Origin: a virus
IMG/VR virus record: IMGVR_UViG_3300024261_000044
Coordinates: 1 to 52,200 of that record
DNA length: 52,200 bases
Strand: one strand, 5' to 3'
Of this stretch, positions 562 through 26,216 are shown piece after piece. A program made the translations under genes and the position numbers. Below the pieces are notes generated by a model. The model saw only the letters and a program-made list of their open reading frames with translations, made no database searches and was not told the DNA's origin. The first letter of the stretch is position 1. Every line of letters starts with the position of its first letter.

Positions 562-981
562 CTAACCCTTATCTGATATTTTTGGCTTTCCTGTGATGGA
601 AATACTACCAGTAAATGCGCAGTCATTATTAGGTGAAGTATCGTCCGGGTCAAACGCATCAATAATCATAGTTCTGGTTGACCCCTGTGCCGCCGTAATG
701 TCTACCTTTATAGATTGAGAAAAAATACCCGTACCGGAAACTTCTAGTATAGCAGCCATAGATTTTTGCTCATTTTGATATATTCTTATTATTGCTGGGT
801 CAGTACCGCTAACTCCGTCTGCACCCTTACAATCAAAAGTAATGCTAGTAAGTGTAAAGTCTACAGTTAAGTTTTCTCTGTGAAGTTCTCTAGCTTTTTC
901 TGTAATTCCAGAAAACCATTTATCACCAGTTGTGAGCCCAGAGGGCTCATTGTCTAACACCATTTTTTGTGTAAATCCCAT
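562..981 (-). CDS. Hypothetical virion protein (139 aa)
   Basis: A complete 139-residue frame runs from ATG 981 to TAG 562. It lies between the large fibre gene and another virion-like gene on the same strand, separated from the fibre by 9 bases. The protein alternates polar beta-strand stretches (for example VDFTLTSITF and AAILEVSGTG) with Gly/Ser/Asp turns. It has no cysteine-rich motif, signal peptide or membrane segment that I can see. Position and composition suggest a small beta-sandwich fibre accessory protein. I do not recognise the family. It contains TGG tryptophan and no in-frame TGA. Confidence 0.65.
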   Translation of the reverse strand: MGFTQKMVLDNEPSGLTTGDKWFSGITEKARELHRENLTVDFTLTSITFDCKGADGVSGTDPAIIRIYQNEQKSMAAILEVSGTGIFSQSIKVDITAAQGSTRTMIIDAFDPDDTSPNNDCAFTGSISITGKPKISDKG

Positions 982-990
982 ATCTATTTC

Positions 991-3900
991 CTATACGCTA
1001 AAGCTTGTTGAATGCCTATTAATTTTTGTTTCTCCCTTAGTTGAACTACCTGTAGAGTCTTTTATAAGAACATCTTTACCAGTTTGCTCTCCGTTACCCA
1101 TAGTAATTTCATCCCCATTTTTGTCGAAAGCATCAAACGTAACGTCACCAGTACCCGTGTCTTTAGTCACCAAACCTGAAACTACAGTTACATTAACTGG
1201 CATCTGTACGAGAATTTGATCTCCCGGAGCAATGCCTCCACCACCACTTACTATGTCACTATATAGTTCTGTGCCTACAGGCTGCTTATTTTGTAAAGGT
1301 CTTACTTTTACATACCACATAGAAGGCGTATTAGTAGTTACGGGGGTAAGTTTATTTCCCGTTATAAATTTTGTGACACTTGTATCTGATGCTGAAAATG
1401 AAGGATTTTCTGTTTTTGAATAAACTACTTCAAATTCGTGTGCACTATTCTGACCATCTGAAGAGTCGTACCACCCACTGCCAACAATCTCAATATTAAA
1501 CCCAAAGACACTGCTCGTCAATGAAATGCCTGCTGCTGTAGTTATGTTCGGAAGTTCATGTAAATAATTTTGTGAGTAGGAAACAAAGCCTGACCCATCA
1601 TGATCCGGGTCATACGTTCCTGCTGCCATCCTCTCAAAGCTAGTTTCTAAGTATGAATTTTTACCTTTTAACTCAAAATACCATCTTTTACCAAGATTTA
1701 GTTTTACTATGTAATTTGGGTTTGTTACAAATTCAGAGTCTAACATATACGTTTCTACATATCCCGTAGGCTGTGAGGTATTTGTATCCAGCTCAATACA
1801 TTTTAATACGTACCCATCGGAGTACCTATCTACAATACGAGCAGTGGATGCTGAGTCTTGGTCACTTTGTGTAAAAGTTGTTCCTACGGTAATTTCAATA
1901 TCTGTACCATTATCTACTATATTAGTTATTTTGTAAGAATTAGAAGTTTCTTCTAAATACAGGGTCTTTCCGTCGGTTAGCAGTAAATCGTTACTAGACA
2001 TAGTAAAATGAGTAAGCTTCACAGTATTTCCTCCTACGGAAGGTGCCTGGCCTGCTACAAAACTTAGTGCGTCATAGTTCCATTTTAGAGAAATAAATCC
2101 AGCTTGTTCTTCTTTATTGGAAGTTGGGTATACGTCGTAAAGTCTGAAGTTGGTTAATGTTGTGGGAGTACCTGCTACTGTAGCCACTAATCTTTGGTTG
2201 TCAGTTCCAAGCCCAAGATAGAATTCTTCATTTGCCACGCCACTTATATATACATTAGATCCTACGTCACCTCCACCTAAAGTAAGTCCGTAAATAACGG
2301 CATCATGTAAAGTTGTCACTCCAGTAAATTCAGATGACTGGCCTATACTTGCTCCTCCAGTTCTAACCTCATTTGCTTCAATATCCAGTATATTCATATT
2401 AGCATACCCCCATTCAAAAGAGCGGGTACCGCTTAAAGTAGGGTTTTGGGCCAAATCTATGCTATCTGCTAAAATTTTGGGAGAGTATAAAACTCCGTCT
2501 GAACTTTTAAAAGAAGCCACCTGTCCACCAGGACCAGTGATTTCCATATCTGGCCCGTTTACTTGGAAGTTAAACCCACCTGAAGTAGCTATACCGCCTA
2601 AGTTAAAGTTTGTTACGCTTCCAGTATCATTAAAAAATCGCGTGTCACCTTTAACCAGTAATCTCGAATTTTTAGTATTTAAAGTCTTGTTTATGCCTAA
2701 TGATAAGTTTCCGGACCTGTCAAATCCTGCGACCATATTAGTAAAAGTTTGCCCGGATGCAGTAGGTATATTTAAATTTTTTATTGACGCTTCGTTTATT
2801 GTAGATGAATTACTAATATCTAAATTTTCTATAACCCCGTATTCATTATATAAAGTCTGTATAGATGCGGCCCCGCCAGAAACAGAAAGTCCACCATCCC
2901 CGACAATGTTAACTTCTTGAAGCTGTGCAAACCCACCAGTTAAATTTTGTATTGTTCCCAAGTTATCTACTGTGAGGTTCCTAGATACCTCTGTATCTTT
3001 TGAGTACATAGTATTAGATGCTTTTATATTTCCAGTAACATGTAGCATCTCTTCTGGAGATACGTTGTTAATTCCTATGTGACCATCTGAATTCCTAACT
3101 AAAATTCTATCGTTACTTCCAGTTTTTATTACTAAATTTGATGTAGAGTCTGTTTCAATAAAAGACTCGTTTGTACCTGTGTACATACTAACAGAGCTAG
3201 TACCTTCAGAATTATGGATAGTTAAAGCTTTCCATAAATTTGATGTTTGCTTAATATGTAAAGAAGATGTGTCTGTGGAAGAGGGTACATACCCTATACC
3301 TACAGACCCGTCTGTTTTTAAGTACAGTTGATTGTTAGTTACTGAGCTACTGTACACAGCTTTTAAAATTAAATCTTCGTTATATGAGCTAACCTTCCCT
3401 GCATTAATTACCACTTCTTTATCAAAATAGTATCTCGGCATGTCGGTATTAAAGTGAGATCACTCGCTATTCTGTGCACCAATAGTAGTGTACCCATACC
3501 TAGTTTGTAGTTTTACTGCACCACCCTGTTGGTCACCTTGTATACTCCCTCCAGTATGTAAAGCTTCTTGTGGGTTTTTATTGTTAATACCTACCTTACC
3601 GTCCCCAGTGATGGTGACTACCCCAGCAACAGAGCTTCCATTAGGTGATAAGTTTATAACGTCTGGAGAACCTTCTGTATAAAAAATACCGTGGTCAGGG
3701 CTGCTGGTAGAGTAAGCAATTCCAAATGTTGCGTTAGCTTGGCCTCCCATATACACTCTTCTAGACACGCTAGGGGTAAGTTCTATGTTACCGTCTATTG
3801 TTAACTCGGAAGTAGGCACACTAGTTTTTATTCCAACTTTTCCTTCACTTTTATCCACAATAAATACATTGTCAGATACTAGTATGTCATCACCAAACTC

Positions 3901-4647
3901 AACCTTACCTTGTTGCTTGTAGTTTCCAGTAGAATCCCTATCTTTTAAAATTACATCATTTTCGTTTAAAATACTCTTTGATAATTTCAATGAAGATAGG
4001 CCCCGTAAATCGATGACTCCTAATGAGCTAGATGTCCATGTTTTACTAGAAGAGTCCAAAAACGTAAATGTACTATTCTTTAATAGTCTACCTGTGGAAT
4101 CAGTTTTTACTATTGCTAACGGTATTTCATCTAAAGGGTTTACTATAAAAGCTGAATTTAAATTATCTCCTGAAACTAAAACTTTAATTGAGGGTAAAAA
4201 GGTATCAGTATATAATGTGTTTCTTTTAGAGTAAGGTGTTTCTCCAGATGTATCATATAAAAATGCATTCATTGCTGATACTGGATTACTCCCAACTTCT
4301 TGGAAGGATCCTTTTATTAAGTACGTAGTATCTGCTTGTGTTGTTACACCTAAATCCGGCAATGAAAAGTAAGTGCTTGCTTCTAAGTTTATTAAACTTC
4401 CATTATTTAAGTATGCTTTTCCCGGTTGAACTAAAAATTGAGTTGGGACACCACTTGTTGGCTCAGAAAAGATTTGAAAAGTTGAGTCTGAAAAAGGTAT
4501 TTCCCCGTTTACTACGTCAATTGGGATTGCAAAAGAATTAAATAATATGTTTAATCTTTTATATAGGTTAGATTGTACGGCAAATTGAAGATCGTCAAAT
4601 ACTTTTTCTAAATTTTGTACTGTTCCGGATGGTATTTTTATTCTCAT
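991..4647 (-). CDS. Large modular tail fibre protein with one in-frame TGA (1218 aa)
   Basis: With the standard code this reads as two frames, 4647-3460 and 3441-991. They are in phase and separated only by TGA at 3460-3462 (residue 396). Read as Trp, the junction gives NSEWSHFNTDMPRYYF, which closely resembles the H-x-TD-x-P-x-FYF segment of many phage fibres. The N-terminal part carries repeated modules of the form KVGIxxxxPxxxLxxxG (near residues 270 and 350, then again after the TGA), typical of fibres that end modules with a G-x-v-GIGT-x-P motif. The rest is low-cysteine, beta-rich and Ser/Thr/Asn/Gly-rich. It ends at TAG 991. It shares module type with the next fibre gene (4663-7386). 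Likely role: receptor-binding or structural fibre at the baseplate. The start is ATG 4647. Confidence 0.85.
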
Positions 4648-4662
4648 TTTATTTTATCCTGT

Positions 4663-7386
4663 TTATATTGGGGCTATTCATTCTACTGTACAATTAAATA
4701 ATGCACAATACTCCCTACCCGATGTTTCATGCTCAACAAATGTAAGTTTTTTATAACCAGGAGAAGTGGTTTTATGCACACCTTGTAACGATCAGTATTG
4801 AACAGTATTACCGTTAGAGTTGAAATCAGATGTGAACGCTAGTCCTACTGTTACACCGTCTACTAGACACTTTATGAATGACTTAGCATTGTCAGCAGAA
4901 TTGTAATTTACTCCAAGATTAGCTATTATTCTGTAGTACCCCGCTTTTGGTCAGTAAGTGTATCTGGTACCCGTCGTTTTTTCAAATGGAGCAACCACAG
5001 TACTAGCATTTTCGGCAGAGGTAGAACTATTTCACCCAACTGCACCCGGACTATCTGTCATGAAGTGTCTACCGTTCCCGCTGTTATAAGGAACAATTAT
5101 TGTCGTGAAAGGAGCGTGATAAGCTGGACTTACGTCGCTAGGTTTAATTTGAAAAAGTTGTGATTGCACAAGACTTGCATCTTTCAAGTCATTCCCTCGG
5201 AAATCTATGCTCTTATTTACTTCTATATCAGAACTAGATGGAGAGGTTAAACTATTTATAATTAACGACTCAGTAACTGTTAGCTCACTTGCAGTAAAGG
5301 AATTAGATACGATTAAATCTTCTATATTTATGGTTCCGGCAGATACTATACCTTCTGCTTTGATTCTTCCGTTAACATGAAGCATTATATCTGCAGCTGG
5401 AGTAAACTCTTGAGAATTACTAATTCCAATCTTGCCGTTGTATGCTCTTAAGAATACATCATTGTCGGTATTAGATCCTCTTTTAAAACGTAAAAATGCT
5501 GACCCATCATCGTCCTGCATTTCTAGGACGGGACTACCCGCAATTGTACTTGTCATAATATAGGACGTTGGGTCTTGTACTCTAAAACCTAGGTTTAAGC
5601 TTGTCGAATACACATCTAACATTCGCTCTGGATTATTAGTATTAACACCTACCTTTCCAGAAGTATCAATAATAAACTCTGGTACGGAGTTGGCTGTTTG
5701 TTTAATTACATAATCACTTGCATCCCCGCCAGAACCGTTTGAGTCGTCCATACCCGTTAACCAATCTAGACTGCTATCACTATCAACAAAATTTACGGTT
5801 CTTTGTCCCGTACCTTTAATTCTTACAATAGAGTGGTCTTCTCCTTCAAAGACTGCAGAAACATCATCGTTGGAAGTGTCATTAGACAAGTACACATGAA
5901 GTTTACCTTCTGGGGTTGATTCGTTAATCCCTACTCGACCATCCCCGGTTATAGCTATGTCCTCCCTCTCACTTGTACTATTTACAAATTTTAAAGTACC
6001 GTTTTGGTTTTGTATCCTAAAGTCGTCTCCAGAAGTATCATGTATTTCTAGTCTAGCGTCTGTGTTAGAAATTCTTATAGACCCATTTACTTCTAAAGCC
6101 TGATTTGGGTCGTTAGTATTTATACCTATCTTTCCAGCATCAGTTATTCAAACTCGTTCAGCATTATTTGTTTTAAAAATTAAATTATTACTTTCCGTAC
6201 CTATTCAGTTGTAGCCAAACGTAGAGTCTTGGTCTTCAAAAGATATAAATGACCCTGTACCACTGTTTTTTACTCTCAATATGTTCCCAGTAGTGCTTGT
6301 TACGTCTATGTCTAAACCGCTCACAGTTGGTGAGACTGTTCCTATGCCTTGATTACCTGATACATATAGGTCATCTGATAGAGTAGATATACCAGTTACT
6401 CCAAGACTGCCGACTAAAGTTGAGTTACCGTCTACATTTAAATTGCTATCAAAATCCACATTACCGGTGGAAAGAAAAGTTCCATCTACTTTTGTATCGC
6501 CAGACACATGTAATTTGTAAGTACTAAGCCCACTATCTGTGTGTATGCCGACATTTCCACCTGCACTGAGTACTATACCATCCGTACTTCCGAACAATGA
6601 ATTCTGAATAATTCTGAAGGTACCGTTGTCATGTCTACCTACGTAGGATTTAGTTCCAGTACTGTCTGAAAATTTTACTGCTTTGTATGAAGAATTTTTT
6701 ATTGTTATATAAGAGCTATTATCAGAGCTCTCAAAAGTTGCAAGGTTATCACTTGAATCATAAACAGAAAGTGGGTCAGGTGAAATACTTGTAACACTAC
6801 TTCCTATGGAAAGGTTTTCTGACATTAGTACCTGTCCTTGAACATCCATTTTAAACCCAGATGTTAAAATATTTCCTTCTCCGAAAGTTAAAGTTTGTCC
6901 AGTTTTTACAAGTTTCACATCAGAATCAAGAGACACTTCTAAAGTACCATGTGGTTGGTTAGGAGTCCAATCTGTCGTTATACCGTTAGATCCTGAGATT
7001 GTAATAGTACTAACATTGTTCGTATCGTCTACAGATAACTCGTAGGAAGAATAGTTATTATCATTATCTTCTGGAGAATCAAACTTTATTAAAGTACTAT
7101 GAAGGTCTTTCCTACCTATATTTAAAATATTATCCCCAGCCACTCCCAGGCCAGTAACGGAATTATCGGATGTTATAGTTTTATTCTGTAAAGTTTGGGT
7201 TGCGCTTGTCCCGACAAGTACACTACTAGAAGGAGCATTAGGGCCTATCGCTTCGTAAGTTTCTGATGTTGAGTCATCTACGTCAAACACAGTTAAATCA
7301 GCATCGATACTAGTCATGTTACTATTCATAGTATTCATACCTTCTCTTGGTGTCATTCCTGACGTAATTAATGTTATATTTGCCAT
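4663..7386 (-). CDS. Second modular tail fibre with six in-frame TGA codons (907 aa)
   Basis: One continuous frame runs from ATG 7386 to TAA 4663 if TGA is sense. TGA codons lie at 6205, 6148, 5032, 4951, 4792 and 4678 (residues 394, 413, 785, 812, 865 and 903). Read as Trp they give FGYNWIGTESNN, ERVWITDAGKIGIN, GAVGWNSSTS, YTYWPKAGYYRI, VQYWSLQG and CTVEWIAPI. Several KIGIN-x-NDP-type modules repeat through residues 290-600. The last 130 residues, with aromatic WPKAGYYRI and a closing beta-strand series, look like a C1q-like trimeric head domain. With the standard code the gene would lose this domain entirely. It lies 15 bases upstream of fibre gene 991-4647 in the same operon. Likely role: host-recognition fibre. 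Glycine at the TGA sites would not suit the contexts. Confidence 0.85.
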
Positions 7387-7412
7387 ATTTTTTTTCTTAT
7401 CCTTTGTCTAAA

Positions 7413-9320
7413 TTAAGGTAAATCTTCGTAAGGTAACTCCGCATCCCATAAAGTCCAGCTATTTTCTCCTCAGGTTGCTCACTCACTTGTGCCAGAAACT
7501 TTCACTAAGTGCTCTGTCTCAACCGAATTGTCTGAATCATAAGTTGTCAGTTTAAACTTATACAACCTATGAGTTGGAGGAACATTAGAAACGGTAGCTG
7601 ATAACTCCAAGCTTGTTTCATTAGTCATAGTAACCCCTAGGTCACTGCCACCATAACTTTCTATAGGCTCAACTAGTTCTCACTTATAGCTTAATATATC
7701 GTCTTCAGGGTCAGAAACCAAGCCCGAAAGTAAAATATTTGCTGAGGATGACGTAGGGTCATACCATTCAGAATCTGAGTAAGTAACTACTTCAGGAGGT
7801 AAGTTAAAAACATTAGCTATTAATCCTGGGGGTACTCTGTCTGTAATAAATTTATCTATAAATAACTTGTGTCCTTTGAATATGTTTTTTACACGGTTAG
7901 TAACTTGTATACCTAAAGTATGGTAGAACTCTTGAGGATTTGATACCTCTCCTGAATACCGACTTTCATCATCTATAATGCTTATTTTACCACCCTCGTT
8001 CTCGTGGTACGCACATTGATAATAAATAGTATTTGGTGTGTCTTTTAAGGGAGTAAAAAATACGTCCCCTACTTCGGACTTCGCATTCTCAACAAACCTG
8101 TTTTCTTCATCTTTTATGGGGTACCCACCTCTAATGTCTGAAGAAAAATAAAAAGCATGGTTGTTAGAATCTACTTCAAATTTATACCGTTTTCTTCTAA
8201 CTAATGACAAAGACTTTCTTTTTTCACCGTCTAGTGAGAATTGATTTTTTCCGCCATCATGATACCCAACGTCACCAATCTCTTTTATTGATGTTGTTAC
8301 TTTAAAGGTATCTCCATCTCTTGTTAGTATTCCAGATATCATAGAAGGATTGCTATCATAATCATACATTGATACCCCAGATATCAAAGAAGAAAATTTG
8401 TCTATTTCATCTCCCACTGATGGGGCGAAGTATGATTCATTTGTAACTTCATAAACTATGTCACCAGTTAATCCAGATATAGTAATGTAATTACTAGTAC
8501 TATTACTTGTTAAACTAGACACTGTTCCAGCCTCATAACTAAAAGGTACACCTAAAATAAGGGAGTATAAGTTTTGTAAATTTTTTAAAGTCGGGTGTTT
8601 CTTTGACGTAGAGTACATTGCATGAGATAACTTAGTTAGGTGTAAGGCCCATTCTTTTTGTTTTTCTAAGTAATTTTTATTTTCATTATTCCATCCACTA
8701 ATAAAGGGCTCGTACCGACCACTTAAAATTATTCTCTCTGGGTCAGGTTCTCCAAATGCTGAGAAAAATACCCCCGTTAAAGATGGGACGAGACTTATGC
8801 CCTCAACAGAGTAGAAGTTTTCACCATAGTTATTAGGCATTTGGTTTGTATTTAAATTTACTCCGCTCCCCGTTGTAGAATAAGTCCCAGCTTCACTTTC
8901 GTAAGAATTGATGTCAGTTAAAAATTTTAAATAGTGTAAGTTATGTATCTCGTAGTCTGTGCCCTCCTGTAAAACTTGCCCAGTACTAATTCCACTCAAT
9001 TCAGGAATTGATAAATACATATCATCTCCAGGTAGTTTATAATAATGCACACCACTAACCATACTCACAGTATTTTTTTCATCACCCTCAAAAGTTACAT
9101 CATATATTTGATGTCCGTGCTCTATGTACCCTCTAGATAAGTCTAAATATTGTGTAAGGTTAGCTTGATATAAGTCGTATGTTAGCCCCTCTGTACCCTC
9201 AAACAGTGCAATTCAAAAAGCTTCTATTCTTTCCTTACTTTCTTTATCAAGTTTACCGTAGAAAGTCCCTAAGATATCTCATAAAGACGAAACATTAATA
9301 TTTGGGTCAGGTGAAAACAT
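7413..9320 (-). CDS. Baseplate or tail fibre-attachment protein with PKD/K319-like end and five TGA codons (635 aa)
   Basis: The frame runs from ATG 9320 to TAA 7413 when TGA is read through at 9279, 9213, 7680, 7479 and 7470 (residues 14, 36, 547, 614 and 617). The N-terminus then reads VSSLWDILGTFYGKLDK and RIEAFWIALFEG, a helical start common in phage tail proteins. Near residue 547 the TGA fills the tryptophan of DPEDDILSYKWELVEP, the signature turn and strand of PKD/K319-type beta-sandwich domains (D-P-D-G-D-x-L-x-Y-x-W). The last residues alternate TGA and TGG codons as TSEWATWGENSWTLWDAEL. A KFEVDSNNHAFYFSSD region (near residue 290) looks like another beta domain. The ATG directly abuts the TAA of the upstream gene. 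Exact role unknown, most likely a baseplate-periphery or adaptor protein. Confidence 0.8.
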
Positions 9321-10940
9321 TTAAACCTGTGATATTCCTACTAAACTTTCATCGTTAGCATAAAACCTTCCTACTTGAGTTATAGACATCTCGTATGCTT
9401 GGCCTCTTACTGATAAGACATCGCTCACAAACTCTGTATTAAAAGATTTCACAGATACGTCCATGTCTAAATTTACATGAGTAGCACCATTAGCATACAG
9501 TAAGTCTACAAAGTCTGACTTGTCGAAAGAAGTCCTTTCTAGAGAATTTATATAGTCTTTAAACTTATCTTTCATAAGAACTTCATCTACCCCCCCAGAG
9601 TACTCTAAATCGTTGATTTGAATTATATGTGGAGGCATTGCTTTTACTAACATATCGGATGCCGGAAATTTAAAGTTTTCTCCAATTATTAAGGAGTTAG
9701 CAGAGGATCCAAATGACCAGTGTCTGTAAGTTATATCTACCTCTGTCCCTACACTATCCTCCTCAAACAGTATTAAGAAGTTTGTTTTGTTGGAAAATGC
9801 AAGTGACTTGTCTACAATAGATATATTGTACGACGACGGGTCAAACTCTTCTTGAGAATAATGCTCAGTTAATGAAAGTATCTCCACAACATAAGGGTCG
9901 AAAGAAGATATGTTACTTGTAATTATTTGGTTACTGTCACTGACTGTGCCAGTAGCTACACCTACCTGGTAATTACTAGGGTCATGGATGTATATGTCAG
10001 TAGAATTCCCTCTATGTATTCCGTCTAAGTTAGTATTGGAAACTTTTATATAGTATGTAACCAGTGAGTGCTCAACGTCTCTATCTAAGTCTGCTCCAGG
10101 GTATTCAAAGTCTGGGCCTGAGTTAGCAGCGGTTGCGGCTAAACTAATAAAACCGTTGTCATCTTTATACCAGCTAATTGGTTCCACAGATGATTGTATC
10201 TTTTGCAAATCTCTATCGTCGTCTATAGTATGAGAATGGGAGCCTAGTGATTCTCACTCAGAATTTTTTACATTTCAAATGCCTAGCTTTACCTTACTAT
10301 GTGGGTAGGTTACTTTATCTGATTCTGCAGCATATAACACGGGATCATACCCTACTCCGTAATAGTCTACAGTTAATGGCCCACTGTCCGGAAACTCTAA
10401 GCTATCCAATTTAAATTTAAATAGCTGCATAGGAAATGTCTCTTCGAAAGACTCAATAATTAAGTTATCATAATACCACTCAGAATTTCTAGTTTGCGCA
10501 ACTGCTAATCCAAAGTGTTCCCCCTTAGCAACAGGTATGTAAGGTGGGTATGTTTGACCTCTATTGATAATTGCAGTGTTATCTGCAAACTCAGTAAATT
10601 CTTCTGAATCAAATATCCAAGCTTTAGTAGCCATCTTCGGCCAAACCTTCATTTGAAAATCATACCATTTATTAGGCTCTATCCAAGATTTAGCTGCTTG
10701 AAGGAATTGATTTTTACCTGATGTCTGATCAAACATCTGATCATGGCCAACCCACACCTCTTCCTGAAGTATATCGTTGTCAACTAAGTACACATTATAT
10801 TTTCAAAAGTTTTTATTGTCTTTTATCTTCCCTATGTACCCAGATGCTTCCTTTACTGTCATTCCAGTATGTTCTGCAAACACAGCTAAGTCACCCACGT
10901 AATTTGGGCTATAAGGGTCTTTTGATGTATAAACTGGCAT
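9321..10940 (-). CDS. Tail/baseplate-associated protein with three in-frame TGA codons (539 aa)
   Basis: The frame starts at ATG 10938-10940, overlapping the stop of the J-like gene as TAATG, and ends at TAA 9321. It contains TGA at 10803, 10275 and 10254 (residues 46, 222 and 229). As Trp these read KNFWKYNVYLVDND and GIWNVKNSEWESLGSH. Residues about 60-170 (KWYDFQMKVWPKMATKAW and following) resemble a lectin or LamG-like jelly roll, a judgement from sequence pattern only. The C-terminal 300 residues are beta-rich and low in cysteine. Standard-code reading would break it into two fragments with poor starts (GTG and TTG). Its place directly after the J-like baseplate gene suggests a baseplate or fibre-connector role; the family is not recognised. 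Confidence 0.75.
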
Positions 10941-12562
10941 TATAAAGCACCTCCCGCAATTTGTTGTTCGTCTTCGTGAGTTGCACCATTAGGATCATTT
11001 AAAAACTCTCCTGGACCTAAGACTTGATTATTCTGCATTCTTATTAAAAATCCGGGCTGTTTCCTCCAGGCTATGCCGTATCCATCATGTGGTAAGTGAG
11101 GGCTAGAATTTCTAAGTGATGTAATATAAGACATCTCACCATTCTCTGTCTTATCATTTGTTTTAAATCTACAAGTTGTTGTAGTACCTGTATGTTGTGA
11201 TAGGGGCTTATGAAAAATTGGTGCCAGATTATTATAATTTTCATTACTAATCATGCTAGATAATTCCTCATATGCAGCATCAGTTGTACCTGCCATTACC
11301 GACCCTACAAGTGAGTATATATTTTGCAATTCTGCCAACCCTATTTGTATATCGCCTGTATAATCTGGAGAATTTGGGTCCTGACTTAATGACTTACCTA
11401 GTCTTAAAACTCCAGTGTCAGCACCAGAGTCGTACCCAAGACCAATCTCGTCTAAGTACGCAAGCGTATTACTTGGGGTTATGCCGTCGTGCATCTGCCA
11501 TTGACCAGAGTTAAGTACAGTAGCAAAGTGCATTTGTAATTCCTCTTGTATATCAGCCGTCTCTGCTCCCCCAATGAAGTTAAAGTATTCTCTAGCTAGA
11601 ACAAATTGATCTTGTCTAGAGTATTCTATGTCGTTCTTTTTATACAAACCTTCGTACATAGAATCAGAAAATTCATTTATCCACCCATCTGGGCTAGGAA
11701 AAGCAACGTCAGCAGATTCATCAATATCTACAAAAACATCAGAATACGCAGCGTGTTTTTTATCGTATAGACCGTCGTGTTTTCCGGAGTACACAAGATA
11801 AAAATCTTCATCTTCATAAGATGAGACTTGCTCAGTAAGATTGGTTAAGTCCCTTTTCATTAATGGGTGTCCTGCACCAACCACGTCTATAGCTACAATA
11901 CTAGAATATGAACTTTTTAGTTTAGATTTTATACCATATGCTGATGCTAAGGAAGTATTATTTATTTCATCTTTTAGTCTTTGTAAAAAACTTTCGTTGT
12001 CTTCATGCTGTACCCCACCCACAAAAGCTTGCACATTAGTTATATATAAAGGAGTAAACCCTAAACTATTAGATTTTGTAACAGTACCTGACTTCATGTT
12101 ATAATCATCTCCAGGATTCACAGCCTTAATTGGAATCTTACCTGTATCATAATTTGGGTAGTCTGAGGTATTTTGACTCATCTGATACTTAGTTATGCTA
12201 AATTCTGATACGGTCTCGAATTTTAAGTTACCAGACGTATCAGTAAACATAATACCTTTTGGTAGCTCTATAGCCCTTGGAGCTGAAAAATACATATATA
12301 TAAAACCCGATGAAAAGCTCCCTGACTTTCTTTCTACTAAGTAGTTTGAGGCTATAGCATCTAGCTCTTCCTCAGATAACTTAGATATATCAGTTAAAGA
12401 TTGTTTTTTAAGAAATTCTTCGTGATCCAACTGGTACGGAGTCAAAATAGATGTTAAAGGATTAATTAAAATATCGGATATAACACTCCCCTCGCGTACG
12501 TCTATAGTATTATCTAATTCCTGTATCCTTTTTCTTATGTAATTTGGAATATTTATTGGCAT
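10940..12562 (-). CDS. Baseplate J-like / T4 gp6-like wedge protein (540 aa)
   Basis: A complete 540-residue frame runs from ATG 12562 to TAA 10940. The N-terminus (IRKRIQELDNTIDVREGS, then DILINPLTSIL) matches the usual opening of baseplate J-like proteins. The centre carries VQAFVGGVQHEDNESFLQRL (residues about 180-200), the conserved GG-x(4-6)-E-x(2-4)-R stretch of the J/gp6 family, which builds the wedge ring of contractile baseplates. It sits between a gp25-like gene and further tail genes, the order seen in many myoviruses. All tryptophans are TGG (for example DGWINEF and GQWQMHD) and no TGA occurs, unlike most neighbours. The stop overlaps the next ATG as TAATG, suggesting translational coupling. 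Confidence 0.8.
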   Translation of the reverse strand: MPINIPNYIRKRIQELDNTIDVREGSVISDILINPLTSILTPYQLDHEEFLKKQSLTDISKLSEEELDAIASNYLVERKSGSFSSGFIYMYFSAPRAIELPKGIMFTDTSGNLKFETVSEFSITKYQMSQNTSDYPNYDTGKIPIKAVNPGDDYNMKSGTVTKSNSLGFTPLYITNVQAFVGGVQHEDNESFLQRLKDEINNTSLASAYGIKSKLKSSYSSIVAIDVVGAGHPLMKRDLTNLTEQVSSYEDEDFYLVYSGKHDGLYDKKHAAYSDVFVDIDESADVAFPSPDGWINEFSDSMYEGLYKKNDIEYSRQDQFVLAREYFNFIGGAETADIQEELQMHFATVLNSGQWQMHDGITPSNTLAYLDEIGLGYDSGADTGVLRLGKSLSQDPNSPDYTGDIQIGLAELQNIYSLVGSVMAGTTDAAYEELSSMISNENYNNLAPIFHKPLSQHTGTTTTCRFKTNDKTENGEMSYITSLRNSSPHLPHDGYGIAWRKQPGFLIRMQNNQVLGPGEFLNDPNGATHEDEQQIAGGAL

Positions 12563-12572
12563 TTCATGTCCT

Positions 12573-13001
12573 CTAGATTGTCACTAGTATTGAGTTGTTT
12601 GCATTTGTTAAAACATTTATTGAAATAAGTCATCCACCAAAAGTCTCATCGTACTCTATTGATTCCACAGACAACTCCTGTAAGGTTTCATAATCTGATA
12701 AATTTGAGTAATCATTTTGTTCGTTTATAAGTTCCTCTTCTACATCTTTTAAAAGAATAGAAAAAGTATTTTTAAATTGTTTTGCTTCATCTAAAGAGAG
12801 AGCAGTAAACAACCCATAAAAATTTGTACCTATTTTGGTATTAAAAGCGTCCGACCCCTCTATTGTAAATATACGCTTTATTATCCTTTGAATCAAGTTA
12901 GAAACTCCGTCTACTTGCTCTGGGGTACCGGGGAAGAATGTTACCATTCGACTATCTGCGGACCCTACGTAGTCAATCAGTTTAAAATCTACTAATCCCA
13001 T
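12573..13001 (-). CDS. Baseplate wedge protein, T4 gp25 / GPW-like (142 aa)
   Basis: The frame runs from ATG 13001 through TGA 12630-12632 (residue 124) to TAG 12573. The size, the position directly before the J-like gene and the helix-rich N-terminus (VSNLIQRIIKRIFTIEGSDAF, then IGTNFYGLFTALS) fit the gp25/GPW baseplate family. In that family an N-terminal helix and a T-x-x-G-x-x-F-G-like loop precede a conserved core. The C-terminal beta strands continue through the TGA as FGGWLISINVLTNANNSILV, which would be lost under the standard code. gp25 joins the wedge to the sheath/tube platform in contractile tails. The family call rests on pattern and gene order. Confidence 0.7.
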
Positions 13002-13003
13002 AA

Positions 13004-15100
13004 TTAATTTGCTCCTATTGCTCTAGCTGTCGCTAGTTTTTCAATAACGTCCTTTACTTGTGTGTATAATTTATCTATTAAAATGTACGCATCTTCTAAC
13101 TCATTCATAGTATCTTCAGCATCCTCATTCCATACTTTAAAATCAGCAAGCCCTTCTCCTAATCCCATAAGCTTTGCTGATGCCTCCTGTGCTTTTTCTC
13201 TCACTATTCTGGTAGGATCCCCTATTGGAAACCCCTCCATAGTTTTTATATTTAAACATCCCAGTAACTCACCTAAAGCACTTCCCTCTAAGGAGTCACC
13301 ACTTAAAGTAGCGACTATGTTACTTATATTTCCCAGAGATAATGGCCCTTTCATAGACTCTGGCATAGTAGATATTAAGTCGTCATACTTCTTTTTTAAT
13401 TTAGGGAAGTCATTAACTTGCTCTACAGAAGACATAAAAGATAAACAATACCCGTACAAAGCATCATCATGCAATATTTGATTGGTGATACTACTTTGCA
13501 CACTTTTTAATTGCCCGATAGTTCTTGAGTTTACTCCACCTAAAACAACACCCATTATTCCCATACCTACAGGAGTTAATGATACTTGAGATTGTTTAAA
13601 AGCATTTTTAGCAGATTCTTTTTTATTAAACGTATCTTTTATATAAATTCTTAAATTTTCAAACCTTTCCTGTGCTACATCAAAAGATTCTAGATCATCT
13701 TGGGAAGAAGGTACAGGGTTTCCGTCTTCATCCGCTTTTTCACCTATAACAGCTTTTAGTTGTGTTTGAGCGGAAGTTAACTTAGTTACCCAAGACCTTT
13801 TTTTTCCAAATGCTCCTATTTTTGTTTTTGTATCCTTATCCAAAAAACCTTTAACATCTACGCTCACGTCAGAAATCGTACTTAAAGCTGGACTTAATAA
13901 CAGAGTAGTAGAACTTCCTAGAATCTTTAGTATTCCCCAATTAGATGAGAATAAAGTTATGGCGCCATTAGCAACGGATACAGAACCCATTACTCGTTTT
14001 CAATGCGTATTCTTTTTTGAAGGATCACTCATGTAATTCATAGCATGTTCTGTTTCTTTTTTTCCAGCAATAGATGACCCGATTTGGTTTGAAAAATCAT
14101 TCGAAGACCCGCTACCTAAATTTAGCATGTCTCTTGTATACTTAATAGCAGTAATCGGCATTAACTCTACTAGCCTATCTATAACCCCTGAGATTGAGCT
14201 CTCAAGTAAAAATGTTTGTAAATCTTTTGGGAGTACTGGAGTAACTTCAGACATAAAATTTGTAAAGGCAGTATTTTGTTCTTCTATGTACGACTCTTTT
14301 TCTGCATCTCCTATATTTGATGGTACACTAAAAAATCTGTCTTGTATATCATTCTTAAGTAATGTAGGTGATAAAATTTCAACAGAAGAAACATTCATCC
14401 CATACTTATTAAAAATAGGTATAATTTCATCTTTTCTTTTTTTAATCTCTTTGAAAAAGTTTCCCGACAGCGAATCTATTGCTTCTTCAAGACTAGTAGA
14501 AGCAGTCTTTAAATAAGAAGTTCTTGGGAAAGACCCATTTTGTGACTTCATTCTGTTTATTTCACCACTAACGATTTTGCCTGCTCTTTTTATGTAATAT
14601 TGACTACTAGTTATTTCTTTGAATGGGTCGTCACCTCGCCTTCCGTGTATAGTATTTTTTATACTTAGAAGTACAGTAGCAACAGATGCGACGTCATTCT
14701 TTAAAATAAACCCAAGCTCTTTTCTTTTCTCTAGCTCAGCCATTAAATGTTGGACTGCGTAATATTGAATAATAATTTCTATCCTAGCTGCTGAACCTAA
14801 AGCAGCAGCAACTGCTCCAAGAACAGCTCCGAAACCTTTTGACATTAGATCGCTAACAAAACCATTTACATAGTCTCTAGCTACATCCTTTGCCATGTGA
14901 GCAACTATGATTGATAAAGCTGCAAGTACTGACCCACCGGACTTTCCCAATAAGTCATCTATAGCATCTTCGACTCTTTCCACCATCTTAGCAGTTTCAT
15001 CGGCAAGAACCTCTAAGATACTTGATGGATCACATGGATCCTCTATTTCAAATCCTAGGTTACCTAAGGTTAGTGCTAGTGTCTCAAGAGGTGCAGCCAT
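13004..15100 (-). CDS. Large tail/baseplate protein of unknown family with one in-frame TGA (698 aa)
   Basis: Two in-phase frames (15100-14000 and 13990-13004) are joined by TGA 14000-14002 (residue 367), giving KKNTHWKRVMGSVSVANGA. The ATG overlaps the TAA of the sigma-like gene as TAATG. Residues 50-130 are rich in Ala/Gly/Val (AALSIIVAHMAKDVARDY, then FGAVLGAVAAALGSAAR) and could be a hydrophobic or membrane-active helical region. The remainder is helical with Lys/Glu-rich stretches, and a C-terminal coiled coil is plausible (NELEDAYILIDKLYTQVKDV). It lies between tail genes, so a baseplate or ejected-protein role is possible. I do not recognise a family. Confidence 0.7.
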
Positions 15101-15822
15101 TATATCAGTCCTTTAATATCCTTAGCAATTTTATTCTGACGTTTTTTCATATCTCCCGCTTTTAATCCTAACTTAGACCTTAGGTTCTTGGACGTCATTC
15201 GTGGCATTCCGCTCAACCCAAATGTATGTTCCATTATTTTTTTATCTACAGGATCTGCATCAAAATATACAAATTGTATTGCCTGTTTTAAAATAGGGTC
15301 CACGTCCTCATTTCTAGCATAAAAATAAAAACCACCGGCATCATCAGAGTCCTGCAACTCAGCCATAGATAAATCCTTTCTCTGTTCCAGCTGCAATCTT
15401 TCTATTTCACCGATAGCAACATTCATAGAATCAGATAATTCCTCTACAGTTGGTGGCCTACCTTTACTGTCTTCTAAATTGTCGTATATAGTATTATATT
15501 TACCAATTATCAAAGTCCTATTCTCAGGGATATGTCCTACATTCTGGTAATTCATAACACTACGACTTAATTTTTTTAAGTAGTTAATTACATGAGTATT
15601 TAATTGAGACATTGTAGGGTCATAAGTATCAATTGCCTCGCCTGTTAACCTCTTTGCCTCCAGCTCTATGTAAGACCTTGGAAGCCCAGATGCGGCCCAT
15701 TTATTTGATTGCATCATAACTATAGGCGTTAATGACTGCACTAACTCTATCTTGGCCTGTTTGTCACCACCTTTGTACCTATTAAAAAGTTCTAATTCTT
15801 GCTGTTTTGAGTATGTGTTCAT
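15100..15822 (-). CDS. Sigma-70-family-like protein in the late operon (240 aa)
   Basis: A complete 240-residue protein. The N-terminal half has the region-2-like order seen in phage sigma-like proteins: KQAKIELVQSLTPIVMMQSN, then a YDPTMSQLNTHVINYLKKL segment. Residues about 125-160 (SKGRPPTVEELSDSMNVAIG) match the G-R-x-P-T-x-x-E-L-A helix-turn-helix opening of sigma region 3. The C-terminus (KKIMEHTFGLSGMPRMTSKN, then RSKLGLKAGDMKKRQNKI) resembles a degenerate region 4. Unlike the RpoD-like gene at 43838-44656 it lies inside the virion operon. It could direct late transcription or be packaged or act as a structural adaptor. It contains no in-frame TGA. Its stop overlaps the next ATG as TAATG. 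Confidence 0.7.
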   Translation of the reverse strand: MNTYSKQQELELFNRYKGGDKQAKIELVQSLTPIVMMQSNKWAASGLPRSYIELEAKRLTGEAIDTYDPTMSQLNTHVINYLKKLSRSVMNYQNVGHIPENRTLIIGKYNTIYDNLEDSKGRPPTVEELSDSMNVAIGEIERLQLEQRKDLSMAELQDSDDAGGFYFYARNEDVDPILKQAIQFVYFDADPVDKKIMEHTFGLSGMPRMTSKNLRSKLGLKAGDMKKRQNKIAKDIKGLI

Positions 15823-15838
15823 AAATTTGTCTGATTAT

Positions 15839-16972
15839 TTATTTTATATGTTTTGCTTTTAATGAGTATAACTTCTCTGGTAAAGTATGTAACTTATTTA
15901 TTAACTCAGAAAATTTAAAGGAGTCATCTTTTATTTCGTCATCGGCTATACTTTCTATAGCACTAAGGATAGTGGTAAAAAACGTTTCTACGTTAGACTC
16001 ACTTGCTCCAAATACTACAGCCAAAATTGGTGATATATACGAGTCTGAATTTGAGTAAAATTTTAACACCGCCTCTTTACATGCCACTGCCCTTTCCCTC
16101 ATCTCTTTTACGATGTTAATTGATGGATCAATCTTTTTAAATATATCATCAATTTTCAAAAAGTACTCTGGCCCATAATCCACAAATTCCCTAATATCTT
16201 GCCCGCCAAGTACCTTATCAGAGTACATGTTGAGAGTTATAAAGTTATTTAGTGGGCCTAGTATTGAGTCTATTTTTTTAACGTACTGCGAGATTACCTT
16301 ATCTATGTCTACAGACGGGACGTACATGTTTCTCAAATCATTCTCAGATAATACCTCAGGTGCGCCGGCATCGAGGCTGTGGTTTGTGACTACTCAAGAC
16401 ATATTAAAAGTAACAATTTTATCTGCATTCGACGAGTAGGTCGAATTAAAGGAAAGAGGATACCCCTCGACCTGATGATTACCTATAACAATGTATGCTA
16501 TCTGGTTATTTTTTACTAGTTGTGTGCCCCTTATTACGTCATTATACATTTTTATTAAGCTACTACCATGAAAGTACTCATGCTCTCTCTCACTCCTAGT
16601 AGACCTATAGTCTACTGCTGCTCCAGAAAAGTTATATACTCTCGCAGAGTCCCCAAAAAAAGAAACACTAGATGCTCCAAACGTATTTAATATTTGTGAT
16701 CTTTCTTGAAGGTTGAAAGAAAATGCCTGCAATGTAAATTTATTAGTCTGATATAAAATTTTATGCCCACCTTTTACATAAATATGGGCCCCTATGCCCT
16801 GCTCCTCTGAATTTATAGACTCAGCAAGATGTGTAGGAGACTCTTTTTTACTTAAAGGGATAAGTATATTTTTATGGTCCCCAATATTTTGCATAGCTTT
16901 GGGGAAATCAAGATTCGTGCTGGCTGTACCATTTGCTAGTGCTTCTCCCTGGGTTTTAAGCTTAGATGACAT
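15839..16972 (-). CDS. Tail/baseplate protein with one in-frame TGA (377 aa)
   Basis: The frame starts at ATG 16972, 3 bases after the hub-like gene's TAA, and ends at TAA 15839. It crosses TGA 16394-16396 (residue 193), where the reading becomes VTFNMSWVVTNHSLDAG. The N-terminal 190 residues form a beta-rich domain with YQTNKFTLQAFSFNLQERSQ, FGASSVSFFGDSARVYNFSG and RGTQLVKNNQIAYIVIGNHQ. This suggests a tail protein with an Ig-like or barrel fold. The C-terminal 180 residues are helical and acidic. Without TGA readthrough the second half would have only a TTG start in mid-sequence. Unknown family; gene order suggests a baseplate or tail-tube-junction component. Confidence 0.72.
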
Positions 16973-16975
16973 TTG

Positions 16976-19678
16976 TTACCTCACTAAATTTATTTTATTT
17001 GATTTACGTTCTGAATTTCTAATAAAGGCTTCTAATACGTGATTTAACCTTAAGTAAGAATATGGTTTATCTATATTTTCGCCTAAAGTTTTTTCTACCT
17101 GGGATGGGTCTGCTTCTTTTGCATCGCCTTCTTTTTTACTATCAAAAGCACTAATAGCCTCTAACCACTTATCAATCTTATCTTGTATTTCTTGTAAGGT
17201 ACTCTTCAAGCTTATAACTTCTAGACTCGTACTTGCATGTAACTTCGCATTATTTTCCTCTTCAAGAGTTGGAATGACTCTCCCTATTCCCATAATTGTG
17301 TCTTCATACGTTTTCTCTATTCCCATAATTGTGTCTTCATACGTTTTTTTACTTCGTCTTAAATTCTTTATCTTTATGTTTACTTGTCTCACAGTGAAAG
17401 AACTTTTGTCGTCACTTCCATGCTCCGTGACTACAAAAAGATTATCTGGAGAGTCCGGTGTTGTGTTTTTAGCTTTTTTATGAATATTTATATCATGTAA
17501 AATAGTAGAAAGTTGCTTATAATCTGTATCAGCACTGTCAGGGTAGTTATTTTGAGCACCAATAAAATTTAGATAATCTCCCTGAGTTATTATAGGACGA
17601 TAGTTTACTCTAGACATAAATGACTGAGACGCAGTTGTGCCAGCCACTTTTTTATATAATTTTTTTAAGTTTATTATAGACTGGTAAAGATATTTACTGT
17701 ACTTAAGAGAGTCCGATTCATTGCTGTCATTTGGTTCGAATCCCTTTATTGATATAAGTGGGTAATTGTCTTCTTTGCTGCCCCTTATGTAGCTAAAAAT
17801 AGATTGGTCATATCTGTCAGTTTTAACAAATTGGTCGTCAGGTGCTGCTGACCTAGTTTTTAAAGTTTCATTTATTTCTTTTGAGTAACCCCTATTATCT
17901 TGTAATTTTTTTCTCTCCGATATTTTTCCAAATAGCATGTACGTATATATATCTGTACCTACGTTAAAATAGCTATATAACTCGTTATCAAAATAACCAC
18001 TAAAAGAGACAGGGGCCATATCAGCAGAGAAATCATTTATAGCATATTTTTCTCAAGATGATTCCCCTTCACTACCTGACGATGGCGAGAATATTCCTGA
18101 AAAATCATCATCATAAATTAGTACTGTATTTTTGAAAGTAATGGTACTTTTAGCCCCACCCTGGGCAGATATGGAAGTTTGTATGTCCGTTATAACCCCG
18201 ACAATCGAGGGCTCACCCGGATCTAGTATAACTGCTGGCATGCCACAAAACCTATTTGGATTTCACACGGCATCTAATGTAAGAGACCTGAAGGCAAATT
18301 TTTGTTTAGCAAAAGATTGAAGAGATAACTCTCTAATTATTTTTACACCTTCAGACCCTTTTCCTATATAGTCTTCTCGTGTTGTGGGTCTTTCATCGTC
18401 CCCGTCTGAAATTACGTTCCTTATCAGCCCTGCTATTCCGACACCATTCAGTTTCATCCTATGGGGACGTATGCCCCTATATGTCTCTTCTATATTATGT
18501 GAAGTAGATAACGTAGGATTTTCATTTACAGTCGAAGCTTGAGGCCCAATTTGGACTTTTGAGGCAGGTAAAGCAAGGTTTTCATACACAGTTGAAACAG
18601 ATGGTACTGCATAAATCGTACTATCTGTGTAGGTCTCTCCTTGTTTAGGAGAAAAACTGTAAGTTAATTGAGTATAAGCTCTTGTAGGTTCAGACATGTA
18701 TTTCCTATCATACCTAAATGCTGAAACTTGGTCTGAGAAAAACACGTTACATAATGCCGGAGGACTCCATTCTTGTGACGGAGCTACCAAGCACCTGAAG
18801 GGTACTTTAGAGTCACCACCTGACGGAGAATACCCCGAAGTTGGCGACGCAGGTGCTAGTAATGAATATCTTATTTCCTTCAAAATAGTCAGTATTATAT
18901 ATAGTAAACTTGTTTTTCTAGCACTTTGTCCGAGTGTTTTTAGAACTTTTACAAGAAGAGCATTCTTCATCCCATCTAAGTTAGACATGTTTGGAAAAGA
19001 TATAATACTATCTTTTAACCCCATAGACGAATTTAAAAATTGGAAGAATAAGTCGGTACCTTCAAAGCTTGTTAATATATCTTGAAGAAGAGAATGTCAG
19101 TCTGATTTATCCTCTCCCTCCGAATAGGACTGTATTAGTTTCTGTATAGTATTTATAACTCCTCCTAACATAGCTATACTTTCAAAACTTTCTGATGACG
19201 TATTATTATTATCAGGTATATCTCCAGAATTCTTATACATACTTGAGGTTATTTGCCCGGAGTCAGTTTCAGTATTTATAAAATTATACATACCATGTTC
19301 ACTGATAGTTAGGTCATCAAACGGTACAACATCTTTAGAAACATGCTCTATATCACCTCACCTAACTATTAAGTTAGTACACGATAGGCTAACTGATCTA
19401 GATGATCCTGTCTTTTGATACCCTACAGAATTAACCTCCCCTTCGTATATCAGAACGGATTCTGATGCTCCCTGAGGAGTAGTATTGGGGCCAAATAACT
19501 GGACTATAGTTCCGGGTAAAATTCTGAGTGCGCCTGTACCTACTCCAAAAGAAAGTTTTAGAGCTGGAAATCCGGATTCATTCTCTGAAATATTTGCAGA
19601 GGCAAATGGAACTTTAACTCCTTCTAAAAAAAGTTCGAAGTTATCAAATAAGTTAATAGTTGGGTTAGTTATTTTCAT
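16976..19678 (-). CDS. Baseplate hub-like protein with four in-frame TGA codons (900 aa)
   Basis: Under the standard code this region shows five short fragments. All share one phase and are separated only by TGA at 19358, 19097, 18263 and 18053 (residues 107, 194, 472 and 542). As Trp these give LIVRWGDIEHV, DKSDWHSLLQD, LDAVWNPNRFCG and GESSWEKYAIND. The N-terminal 105 residues (INLFDNFELFLEGVKVPFAS, then PGTIVQLFG and LIYEGEVNSVGYQKTGSSRS) have the beta-barrel look of hub proteins such as gp27/gpD. The position just after the tape measure agrees. The C-terminal third is helical, with an 11-residue tandem duplication (17284-17347). It ends at TAA 16976. The hub assignment is by gene order and fold pattern. 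Confidence 0.75.
17284..17347 (-). repeat. 33-bp in-frame tandem duplication
   Basis: A 31-base string beginning CTATTCCCATAATTGTG occurs at 17284-17314 and again at 17317-17347, a period of 33 bases. In the hub-like gene on the minus strand it encodes KTYEDTIMGI twice in a row. The two copies are identical at the DNA level over 31 bases, so the duplication looks recent. It adds one 11-residue helical repeat and keeps the frame. Confidence 0.9.
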
Positions 19679-19681
19679 ACG

Positions 19682-22600
19682 TTAGAACTCTACCTTTAAT
19701 TGCCCATCTACAAACGTAAATTGCTTTTGAGACAACTCTACAGCTTCTCTTATCCTACCTTGCGTGTCAACAGCTTGTGCGTCCATGGCGCTTATGGCAC
19801 CATCCTTTACAAATTGTCGTAAGTCTTCTTGTCAGTCTTTACCCCCAAATATTGAACTTTCTTTAGCTAAGTTGTCTTTCATTTTATCATCTATCTGCTT
19901 CATTGTCTCCTCTTTTTCCCCCGAAGACATATTTATTACACCGCCGTCATTCTCTACTATCTTCCCGCCCTCGGCAACAGTTTGGTACGACAATTGCTTT
20001 ATAGCTTTTTCTTGGTCAGCACTAAGTCTTTGCCCATCAAAAACACTGGTAAACATTTTTCTGGCTTTTTGTAGATCCTCTGCAGCCAGCCCAGCTTTAA
20101 ATGAATCTATTTCTCCTTTATTATTAGTCATTTCTTCTGCTACCTTATACATTGCTGCTGAACTTTCTTTGCTACCAACTGCTGCCACATTCACAGACAA
20201 TTCATTTGGATCCACGCCTTTATTTATTAACATCTTCATGAGATTTGTGTACTCTTCTTCACTTTCTATATCTCCGTACGCTTCTGTAAATCCCAGAATA
20301 TCGCTTACTTCACCTACTAATCCTTCCTCCCCCATTTTTTCTAAAGCATCCTTTAGATCTCCACCGTCGAGCTGCAGTTTAGACTTCTTCATGGAGCCTC
20401 CTATGGATTTTATTATACTTTCCCCTTTGGTTTTGTTGTTGTAAGCAATGTCTATATTTTTTTGTAGCTGTTTTTTTCCTACATCATACCCAATTGTTTC
20501 GGACGCCGGCGGAAGAATACCCTTCTTTCCTTCCGACCCTGCATTAAGACTAGAGTGAACTCCCATCCTTATGTCGCCGACCTGGCCTTCCTCACCCTCT
20601 TTTATATGATCTTGCAAGGTTCCAAAAGTTACTTCGCCAATATTTGATCCCTCAGCCAGTAGATCATTGTCGTTAACATACGTTCTTACAGCTGCGTCCA
20701 TACCTTCCAATGACCTCTTGAAGCCTCCTTTTTTTGTAGCATCTGCAACTTTTGCCATTATGCTGTAGTCAGGGTACTTCTCATCGGACTTAGCATTTTG
20801 AGCGTCCTGTAGTTGTTGAGAGTAATTTAAACCTTTTCTTAAATCAGCAACTGTTGTATTTTTAAGTGTAAAGTCTCTTTTGTAATCAGCCCAATCCCCA
20901 AGAGCGTCTTTTCCCTCTTTATCTTGGGTTGCAAATACCTCAGCTTCATCTAAATTTAGGTAGTTACCGTCTGCGTTTGACCTTATGTATTCTTCTCTGG
21001 TTTCCTTATATTCATCTGAGTTTTTTCTTTCAACGTCAGACACAACATCAGATGCAGTTAATATACCTGTACCATGTTTTAACTGCTCCTCAGAATACCT
21101 ACCTGTAAACTTGGTTGTAGTTTTATTTCCCCACCAGTCAGATATTCCTTCAGAGATATCCCTTCCTCCACCTACTAGGTTTCTCCCTAATGTTCCTAAT
21201 GGGGCAAATGTTCTTCCTGTGGCTTTGCTTGCCGCCTCAAACCCTGTTGCTATCCCGTGAGCTACTACACCAGACCTAGATGAACTGTTTAAGTCTTGGT
21301 GTGCGTTAATAGCGCCAGCCATAGTTTGTTGATTTTGATTCTCTGATCCAAAAGTAGCATCCATCATCATGCCTAATCCAGTTCTTGCGTCAACACCCTT
21401 CATTAACATTGTAGCGCCTAAAAATGCTTCAGGAGTGAAAGTCTGGTCAATACTATTAAAAAAACCAACAACATCTGATAAGGCAGCATCTGCCCTATTT
21501 TGTGGTCCCATAGCTTGAACATTTCTTCCCTGGCTTGCTATAGCAGAAAACATATTTATCGGGTCTTGCATTAGGTGGCTTGCACTATTTAAAACATCTT
21601 TAGGCATCATTGGGACATTACCGCTTGTGCCGAATTCCGCTGCCTGCCAAAATCCCAGGGACCCTGGACCTTGCATCATAGATGCATTCTGGCTACTTGA
21701 AACCATACTTGCCCTATCTCCCATACTCATGCCTCTATTTACTTGTCCAGCAAAACCTTCGTATTGAGCCCCAGACCTAAGTATACTTTCTAAACCAGAT
21801 TGAAAAGACTGTGCGGGAGTCACTAAGTTTTGTGCTCCTAAAAGACCCATAGCTTGCATTTCATTACCAGCATTTGTCACAGTGTTTAAAAATTGGGTGG
21901 GGGACTGTCCCATGGACGTAGCTGTTCCTGCAAATTGTGCGCCCCAAGCTCCAATACCGTCAGTACCTTGAACCCCAGATTGTTTTATTGAAGCCATAAT
22001 TTGAGTAGCTTCCTGCATTGTAGTATTAAAAGCATTTTGAAATAATCTTAAGTTACTAACAACATCATCTGCTTCTTTTCTAAATTCTTCTGCGTTACTG
22101 ACTCCTTTAAATCCGCCTGCAGCACCAAAGTCCATGACAGCTGACTGTGCGACTTGACTATCTATACCTTGTAGCCTATCCGTTACCCCGTGTGGTCTAC
22201 TTAAAATACCGTTCGCCATCCCAATGGCATCATCCATTCCTATATTACCAAAAGAACTAGAAGCTAATGATTGTAATCCTCCGGCTAAACTTTCTGCTTG
22301 CCTAGCTGGTGCCATTATAGCTTGTTTAGCTAAATCTTGTCCTCAACCAGCGAGACCTCCGATTACTGCTCCGGCTGGGCCACCAAGCATTAAGCCGCCA
22401 AGAGCTCCACTGAACTTGCTAAAGTTATCCATACCAAAGTTGGTGACAGATTGAGTGAATTGATCCGCGTTAGCCGACCTATATTCATTGTACCCAGTTG
22501 AGGAGTTCGGGTCATACCCTATGCCTAGGCCGCCAGTAGCTTGGCCTAAGAAAGAAGAATTTGATATATTTTGCTCTCTCGTTGATAGAGAAAAGTCTCC

Positions 22601-22945
22601 AGCATTTGTGGCCATGCTGCCAGTCATTCGCTGAAACCCAACCTGTGCTACGTCAGAAACTCTTGATGCAAAGTCTTTTACTTCATTTAGAGAGTTATTT
22701 ACAGTATTAGCAAACGTGTTTTGAAACTGACTTGTAGACTGCAAAACTTCAGGCACAGAAAAAGATGGAGGTGTGCTTGCAAATCCTGCTGGAGTAGCAG
22801 CAGCGCCTCCTAGAGATGAAAATGCAGACGCCCCACCTGACTGTGAGTTCACAGCTTGAGATACCCTTTCTCTTATACTATCTAGCTGACCAGCTAAATC
22901 AGAACTATCTAGCTCAATTTTATACTTTAATACTTTTTCTGCCAT
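19682..22945 (-). CDS. Tail tape-measure protein with two in-frame TGA codons (1087 aa)
   Basis: The frame runs from ATG 22945 to TAA 19682 across TGA 22343 (residue 201) and 19832 (residue 1038). It is long, Ala/Gly/Ser/Met-rich and largely helical, and directly follows a frameshifted chaperone gene, the hallmark position of tape-measure proteins. The start AEKVLKYKIELDSSDLAGQL is a typical tape-measure opening. Residues 180-215 form a hydrophobic Gly/Ala segment (GGLMLGGPAGAVIGGLAG then Trp) that could insert in the host membrane. The C-terminus beyond the second TGA (WQEDLRQFVKDG) adds 50 residues. In tailed phages this protein sets tail length and is ejected with DNA. Confidence 0.88.
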
Positions 22946-22950
22946 GACTA

Positions 22951-25486: not shown

Positions 25487-25500
25487 CAAAGGAAACTAAT

Positions 25501-25698
25501 ATGAAAGAAATAAAATCTTTGTCGCATGATACCGACAAAAACACAGAAGTAAAAGACAAGATAGGAGATATAGAGAGTAGACAATATTATGTATCTATAT
25601 CTGGTACTATAGAAGTTCTCCCTAAATCACGAAGTAGGTTATCTGACATTACAGGCTATAACTCCGAAGTTATGAGGGAGTTTAGTTCTGATGATTAA
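25501..25698 (+). CDS. Hypothetical small protein (65 aa)
   Basis: 65 residues from ATG 25501, preceded by AAAGGAAACTAAT, to TAA 25698. It overlaps the deformylase start by 8 bases, so translation is probably coupled. The sequence is charged, rich in Asp/Lys/Ser, with a short beta-like segment (YYVSISGTIEVLPKSRSRL). No membrane segment, cysteines or recognised motif. It may be a small regulatory or accessory protein. Confidence 0.55.
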   Translation: MKEIKSLSHDTDKNTEVKDKIGDIESRQYYVSISGTIEVLPKSRSRLSDITGYNSEVMREFSSDD

Positions 25699-26212: not shown

Positions 26213-26216
26213 TACT

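Follow-up and report, generated by a model that had tools for sequence, protein, structure and literature searches.

Organization of the locus

The window, by which we mean the whole stretch of viral DNA analysed here (52,200 nucleotides, positions 1 to 52,200 of IMG/VR record IMGVR_UViG_3300024261_000044), contains at 7680-7682 a TCA triplet on the plus strand, i.e. TGA on the minus strand. TGA is normally a stop signal, and under table 11 this codon terminates an ORF of 462 amino acids (7680..9068). When TGA is read as tryptophan, the frame extends on the minus strand from ATG at 9320 to TAA at 7413 and encodes a protein of 635 amino acids with in-frame TGA at residues 14, 36, 547, 614 and 617, the third of these being the codon at 7680-7682. 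Standard annotation would split this protein into pieces.

The 635-aa protein (7413..9320, minus strand) is a tail or baseplate protein with a weak match to the baseplate wedge tail fibre connector family phrog_677 (18.8 bits, E 0.0017). Its homologue in a related phage, represented by IMG/VR contig 3300007508_000607 with about 82% DNA identity over most of the window, is 86% identical and likewise carries five TGA codons. Another contig, 3300008735_001079, is 99.99% the same as that of the relative. No relative of the 635-aa protein was found in PDB by phmmer, and tblastn with the protein and its PKD domain (see below) gave nothing significant among phages and plasmids; the search with the neighbouring protein was likewise without significant match. 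AlphaFold models were too poor to be of use (pLDDT 30 for the whole protein and 42 for the C-terminal domain), and fold search returned no significant match.

In the window, TGA is confined to virion-block genes

In-frame TGA codons are distributed very unevenly along the window. The tail, baseplate and fibre block (562..23723, minus strand) contains 24 of them, present in most of its longer genes, and four more lie in two further virion-block genes (50401..51754, minus strand). The replication and metabolism block (24104..46766, plus strand), which encodes helicase, primase, DNA polymerase A, ribonucleotide reductase (RNR) and sigma factor, has none. In total, virion-block genes use 28 TGA and 53 TGG codons, as opposed to 0 TGA and 76 TGG in the replication block (Fisher p 6e-10). 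Because both blocks prefer codons ending in A about equally, base composition is not the cause of this skew. The figures make a clear statistical case that recoding is tied to gene class or timing. The sheath group, with proteins of 225, 545 and 300 amino acids (46830..50161, minus strand), is structural yet free of TGA (0 TGA and 9 TGG; p 0.02). As for gene ends, taken under code 4, the 41 genes examined stop at TAA (32) or TAG (9) and never at TGA; for the replication block, table 11 gives identical gene ends.

Counted after the first ATG, the replication-strand block of the relative has 75 TGG and 3 TGA codons. One of these TGAs falls outside the aligned homologous part. The other two are situated in a glycosyltransferase-like ORF (23142-23867 of the relative) and in a candidate sulfotransferase-like ORF (21396-21959), both of which look like decoration genes judging by their sequences. 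Their presence in this block suggests that the split tracks gene class and not strand.

The contig that continues the window past position 52200 (L016:1-7346) carries a tail-fibre ORF with 20 TGG codons and a 594-aa ORF with 14, and there is no TGA in either; they lie next to the recoded block. More than 600 relatives of the 594-aa ORF occur in IMG/VR, suggesting that this gene was exchanged recently.

Codon 547 behaves as a tryptophan position of a PKD domain

Residues 527-602 of the 635-aa protein, near its C-terminus, match the K319L-like PKD domain PF22352 (7512..7742, minus strand). With TGA translated as tryptophan, the whole protein scores 28.9 bits, above the curated cut-off of 27 bits. 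With TGA left unscored in a six-frame read-through search, the domain, with one TGA inside, is still matched (22.4 bits, E 4.5e-6), below the cut-off. Since it is found even then, the argument for tryptophan is not circular.

Ten readings of codon 547 were subsequently scored against PF22352 on a protein fragment. The matched profile span was identical throughout (positions 12-78 of 84) and codon 547 is the only TGA of the fragment inside it, so that differences in score are due to this codon. Tryptophan gave 32.3 bits and the nine other readings 21.8-24.8: Tyr 24.8, Phe 24.4, Cys 23.2, Gly 22.9, Leu 22.5, Arg 22.4, Gln 22.2, Lys 22.2 and Ser 21.8. The gain of 7.5-10.5 bits (9.4 over glycine) is what a match state dominated by tryptophan gives, and the scores point to such a state at this codon. 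The original prediction had placed the TGA on the conserved tryptophan of a PKD/K319-like domain and had named a profile comparison as the check; carried out as the above scan, this comparison supports the placement, tryptophan being best by 7.5 bits and the codon behaving as a tryptophan match state. Relative to other PF22352 domains, the likeness is a score above cut-off with TGA as tryptophan and a TGA at the tryptophan state; the differences are its location near the C-terminus of a phage tail or baseplate protein and a match to profile positions 12-78 of 84. As codon 547 falls on a conserved tryptophan of a recognisable domain, it is a clean example of recoding. It is TGA in the relative as well.

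The peptide around the codon, quoted in the same prediction, was recovered exactly (DPEDDILSYK[TGA]ELVEP). DPEDDxLxYK has 18 matches in genomes, followed by W in 6, by I, V and L in 3 each, by A in 2 and by F in 1, and never by glycine or cysteine. The motif thus speaks against these two residues and is not specific to tryptophan, given that 12 of 18 matches continue with Ile, Val, Leu, Ala or Phe. It is common to repeats with an aliphatic residue at this column, hence it would not have settled the reading alone. As sequence evidence the short motif is weak, and it is the profile that makes tryptophan specific.

TGA is used interchangeably with TGG

To specify the meaning of TGA in other genes, every gene was aligned to its counterpart in the relative with TGA masked as X. 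TGA codons of the window face TGA (14), TGG (11), AGG (2) and TAT (1); TGA codons of the relative face TGA (14), TGG (11) and GGA (1). Codons differing from an aligned TGA are therefore TGG in 22 of 26 cases, with one glycine codon, which lies in a poorly aligned stretch, and no cysteine codon. TGG codons of the window that are not opposite TGA are kept in 108 of 110 cases. Exchange with TGG, together with conservation of TGG itself, indicates that the two codons act as synonyms.

Independent evidence comes from a TibC-like heptosyltransferase gene on the contig of the relative, which contains ten TGAs. Its score against NCBIfam model TIGR04414 is highest with tryptophan (287.3), followed by Phe (265.3), Tyr (265.2), Cys (250.4), Gln (248.7), Arg (247.2), Ser (247.0) and Gly (244.1). 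When the gene product is aligned with TibC of solved structure (4rap), eight TGAs lie within the alignment; six of them fall on tryptophan and two on phenylalanine (binomial p 5e-8). Readings of TGA could not be told apart with the phrog_2806 profile for the protein encoded at 50401-51186 or with the GT1 domains of the relative.

Taken together, these comparisons leave hardly any doubt that TGA means tryptophan in this phage. The claim that the codon encodes tryptophan, not glycine (code 25) or cysteine, is confirmed by 22 of 26 exchanges being with TGG and by the TibC-like gene, where tryptophan exceeds glycine by 43 bits and cysteine by 37. Under code 25 TGA should align with glycine, and this fails, the exchanges including a single glycine codon.

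The TibC-like heptosyltransferase of the relative is part of a larger product: in a single ORF (L009:2981-5497) with ten in-frame TGAs it is fused to a PIG-L deacetylase-like domain and to an FkbM methyltransferase.

The long frames are intact

Across eight genes, dN/dS is 0.06 upstream of the first TGA and 0.09 downstream of it, so that purifying selection extends past the TGAs. For the part that follows codon 547, dN is 0.07 and dS is saturated. No TAA or TAG occurs in frame. Moreover, 14 TGAs are common to the window and the 82%-identical lineage, and positions 22481-52200 of the window, with four TGAs, recur at 100% identity in another IMG/VR contig, 3300037807_000720.

Possible mechanism and alternative explanations

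The sequences show that TGA is a sense codon, that it stands for tryptophan and that its distribution is skewed. We consider it likely that an uncultured contractile-tailed phage no longer uses TGA as a stop, reads it as tryptophan in virion-block genes and avoids it, both as sense and as stop, in the replication block, by means of a late switch of suppressor type. The host would read UGA as stop, and genes needed first would therefore have to avoid this codon. As infection proceeds, ribosomes would be enabled to read UGA as tryptophan by a tRNA-Trp that decodes it, whether encoded in the unsampled part of the phage genome or coming from another source. Full-length virion proteins such as the 635-aa protein would then be made only after the decoding shift. 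The suppressor-type late switch is the probable mechanism, which we infer, as we do the "late" class of TGA-bearing genes, here assigned from gene content and strand.

Genes for tRNA and for proteins of the RF-1 and TrpRS families were found neither in the window nor in related contigs, all of which are fragments of genomes. A CCA-adding-enzyme-like protein with PolyA_pol and HD domains is encoded at 26579-28057, and this is compatible with tRNA genes elsewhere in the phage genome. A peptide deformylase (25691-26212) is encoded close to it. Counting against the late switch are the TGA-free sheath group, the TGA-free tail-fibre ORF past the end of the window, the TGAs in the two decoration genes of the relative and two tail-fibre TGAs that face arginine codons (see below).

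The recoding might alternatively follow from the host itself using code 4, in which case the phage would merely conform and no switch would exist. Absence of a suppressor tRNA from the fragments fits this explanation, as does the fact that named phages predicted to use table 4 mostly infect Mycoplasma or Spiroplasma (PMC11210395). We nevertheless regard it as improbable, because 0 TGA among 76 tryptophan codons of the replication block, despite equal preference for A-ending codons, is not expected of a host-wide code. A primase search of genome contigs, aimed at the host, gave no match. We give a similarly small chance to the reading that this phage, which would not belong to the crAss-like group, uses opal recoding as an inherent timer of translation that is kept out of replication genes and works without phage-encoded suppressor tRNA; if true, recoding would be driven by altered host decoding or release-factor control.

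Near-cognate reading of UGA by tRNA-Trp is established, and UGA might thus remain a stop that ordinary tRNA-Trp leaks through, yielding a mixture of short and long proteins. Such leakage needs no dedicated machinery, and none was found in the fragments. On the other hand, with up to six TGAs in one gene hardly any full-length product would be made, either codon, TGA or TGG, freely replaces the other between the two lineages, and no gene examined ends in TGA. This explanation is somewhat less credible still than a code-4 host.

That TGA stands for Gly (code 25), Cys/Sec or Arg is very improbable. Support for arginine comes from the tail-fibre protein encoded at 4663-7386, whose PHROG profile scores 52.2 bits with arginine and 33.9 with tryptophan, a difference of about 18 bits, and two TGAs of this gene face AGG in the relative. 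One of them is TGA 413, in the context ERV[TGA]I, which probably lies at an arginine position of the profile and accounts for the preference; the other, TGA 785, is situated where the alignment is poor. A further TGA of this gene, 394, faces TGG. Given this and the genome-wide exchange with TGG, AGG-facing TGAs are best regarded as amino-acid replacements and not as a second meaning. The PKD scan, TIGR04414 and the TibC alignment all favour tryptophan, with glycine the worst reading or nearly so, and 22 of 26 exchanges are with TGG, one being with a glycine codon and none with cysteine. As general meanings of TGA, code 25, Cys/Sec and Arg were rejected.

Broken genes or assembly errors, in favour of which there is nothing beyond the stops themselves, are refuted by the shared TGAs, the identical contig and purifying selection (with no TAA or TAG in frame), and their probability is negligible.

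Relation to known recoded phages

Opal-to-tryptophan recoding of late genes is already known, and this phage is a clean further instance of it. In crAss-like phages TGA is reassigned to tryptophan mostly in putative late genes, and detection of suppressor tRNA agrees imperfectly with recoding (Yutin et al. 2021, PMC7886860). The present phage resembles them in the meaning of TGA and in its being mostly confined to putative late genes; it differs in its contractile tail sheath and in a baseplate wedge that is phage-G-like, and suppressor tRNA is not seen in the fragments. Capsid, portal and terminase genes of crAss type were not identified in the window. Among phages predicted to use table 4, a Sup-TCA tRNA is present in 15% (PMC11210395). 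For the code-4 phages of Borges et al. 2022, as they are cited in PMC10746230, suppressor tRNA, RF1 and TrpRS are described, along with recoded codons in structural genes. As far as that citation goes, the codon, its meaning and the recoding of structural genes are the same here, whereas none of the three machinery genes was found in our incomplete records. Finally, phages of Gracilibacteria and Absconditabacteria that use code 25 read TGA as glycine, densely and genome-wide (PMC10746230). In-frame TGA and stops TAA and TAG are common to both, but in our case TGA is tryptophan and is absent from the replication block.

No close relative of the phage was found among 50,697 phage records. Searches with RNR and glycosyltransferase retrieved distant phages only, and in those distant phages that were tested the structural module was not found, save for one distant baseplate-wedge match and one marginal match in another phage. 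To the phages with tryptophan-encoding TGA the analysis adds a contractile-tailed lineage so far represented by IMG/VR contigs alone.

Other genes of the replication block

The RNR (36380-39361) is B12-dependent, with RNR_Alpha, an RNR-II insertion domain and the barrel. Some 330 additional residues follow "SAEKC", and only 652 residues can be aligned with the relative. Judging by its sequence, this insertion resembles an intein that contains a homing endonuclease. A 912-aa primase-helicase-like protein is encoded at 28416-31154, with a match to the TOTE archaeo-eukaryotic primase domain in its N-terminal part. Further, adjacent JAB (Prok-JAB) and ThiF/E1-like genes, a ubiquitin-like-pathway pair, are located at 42248-43282.
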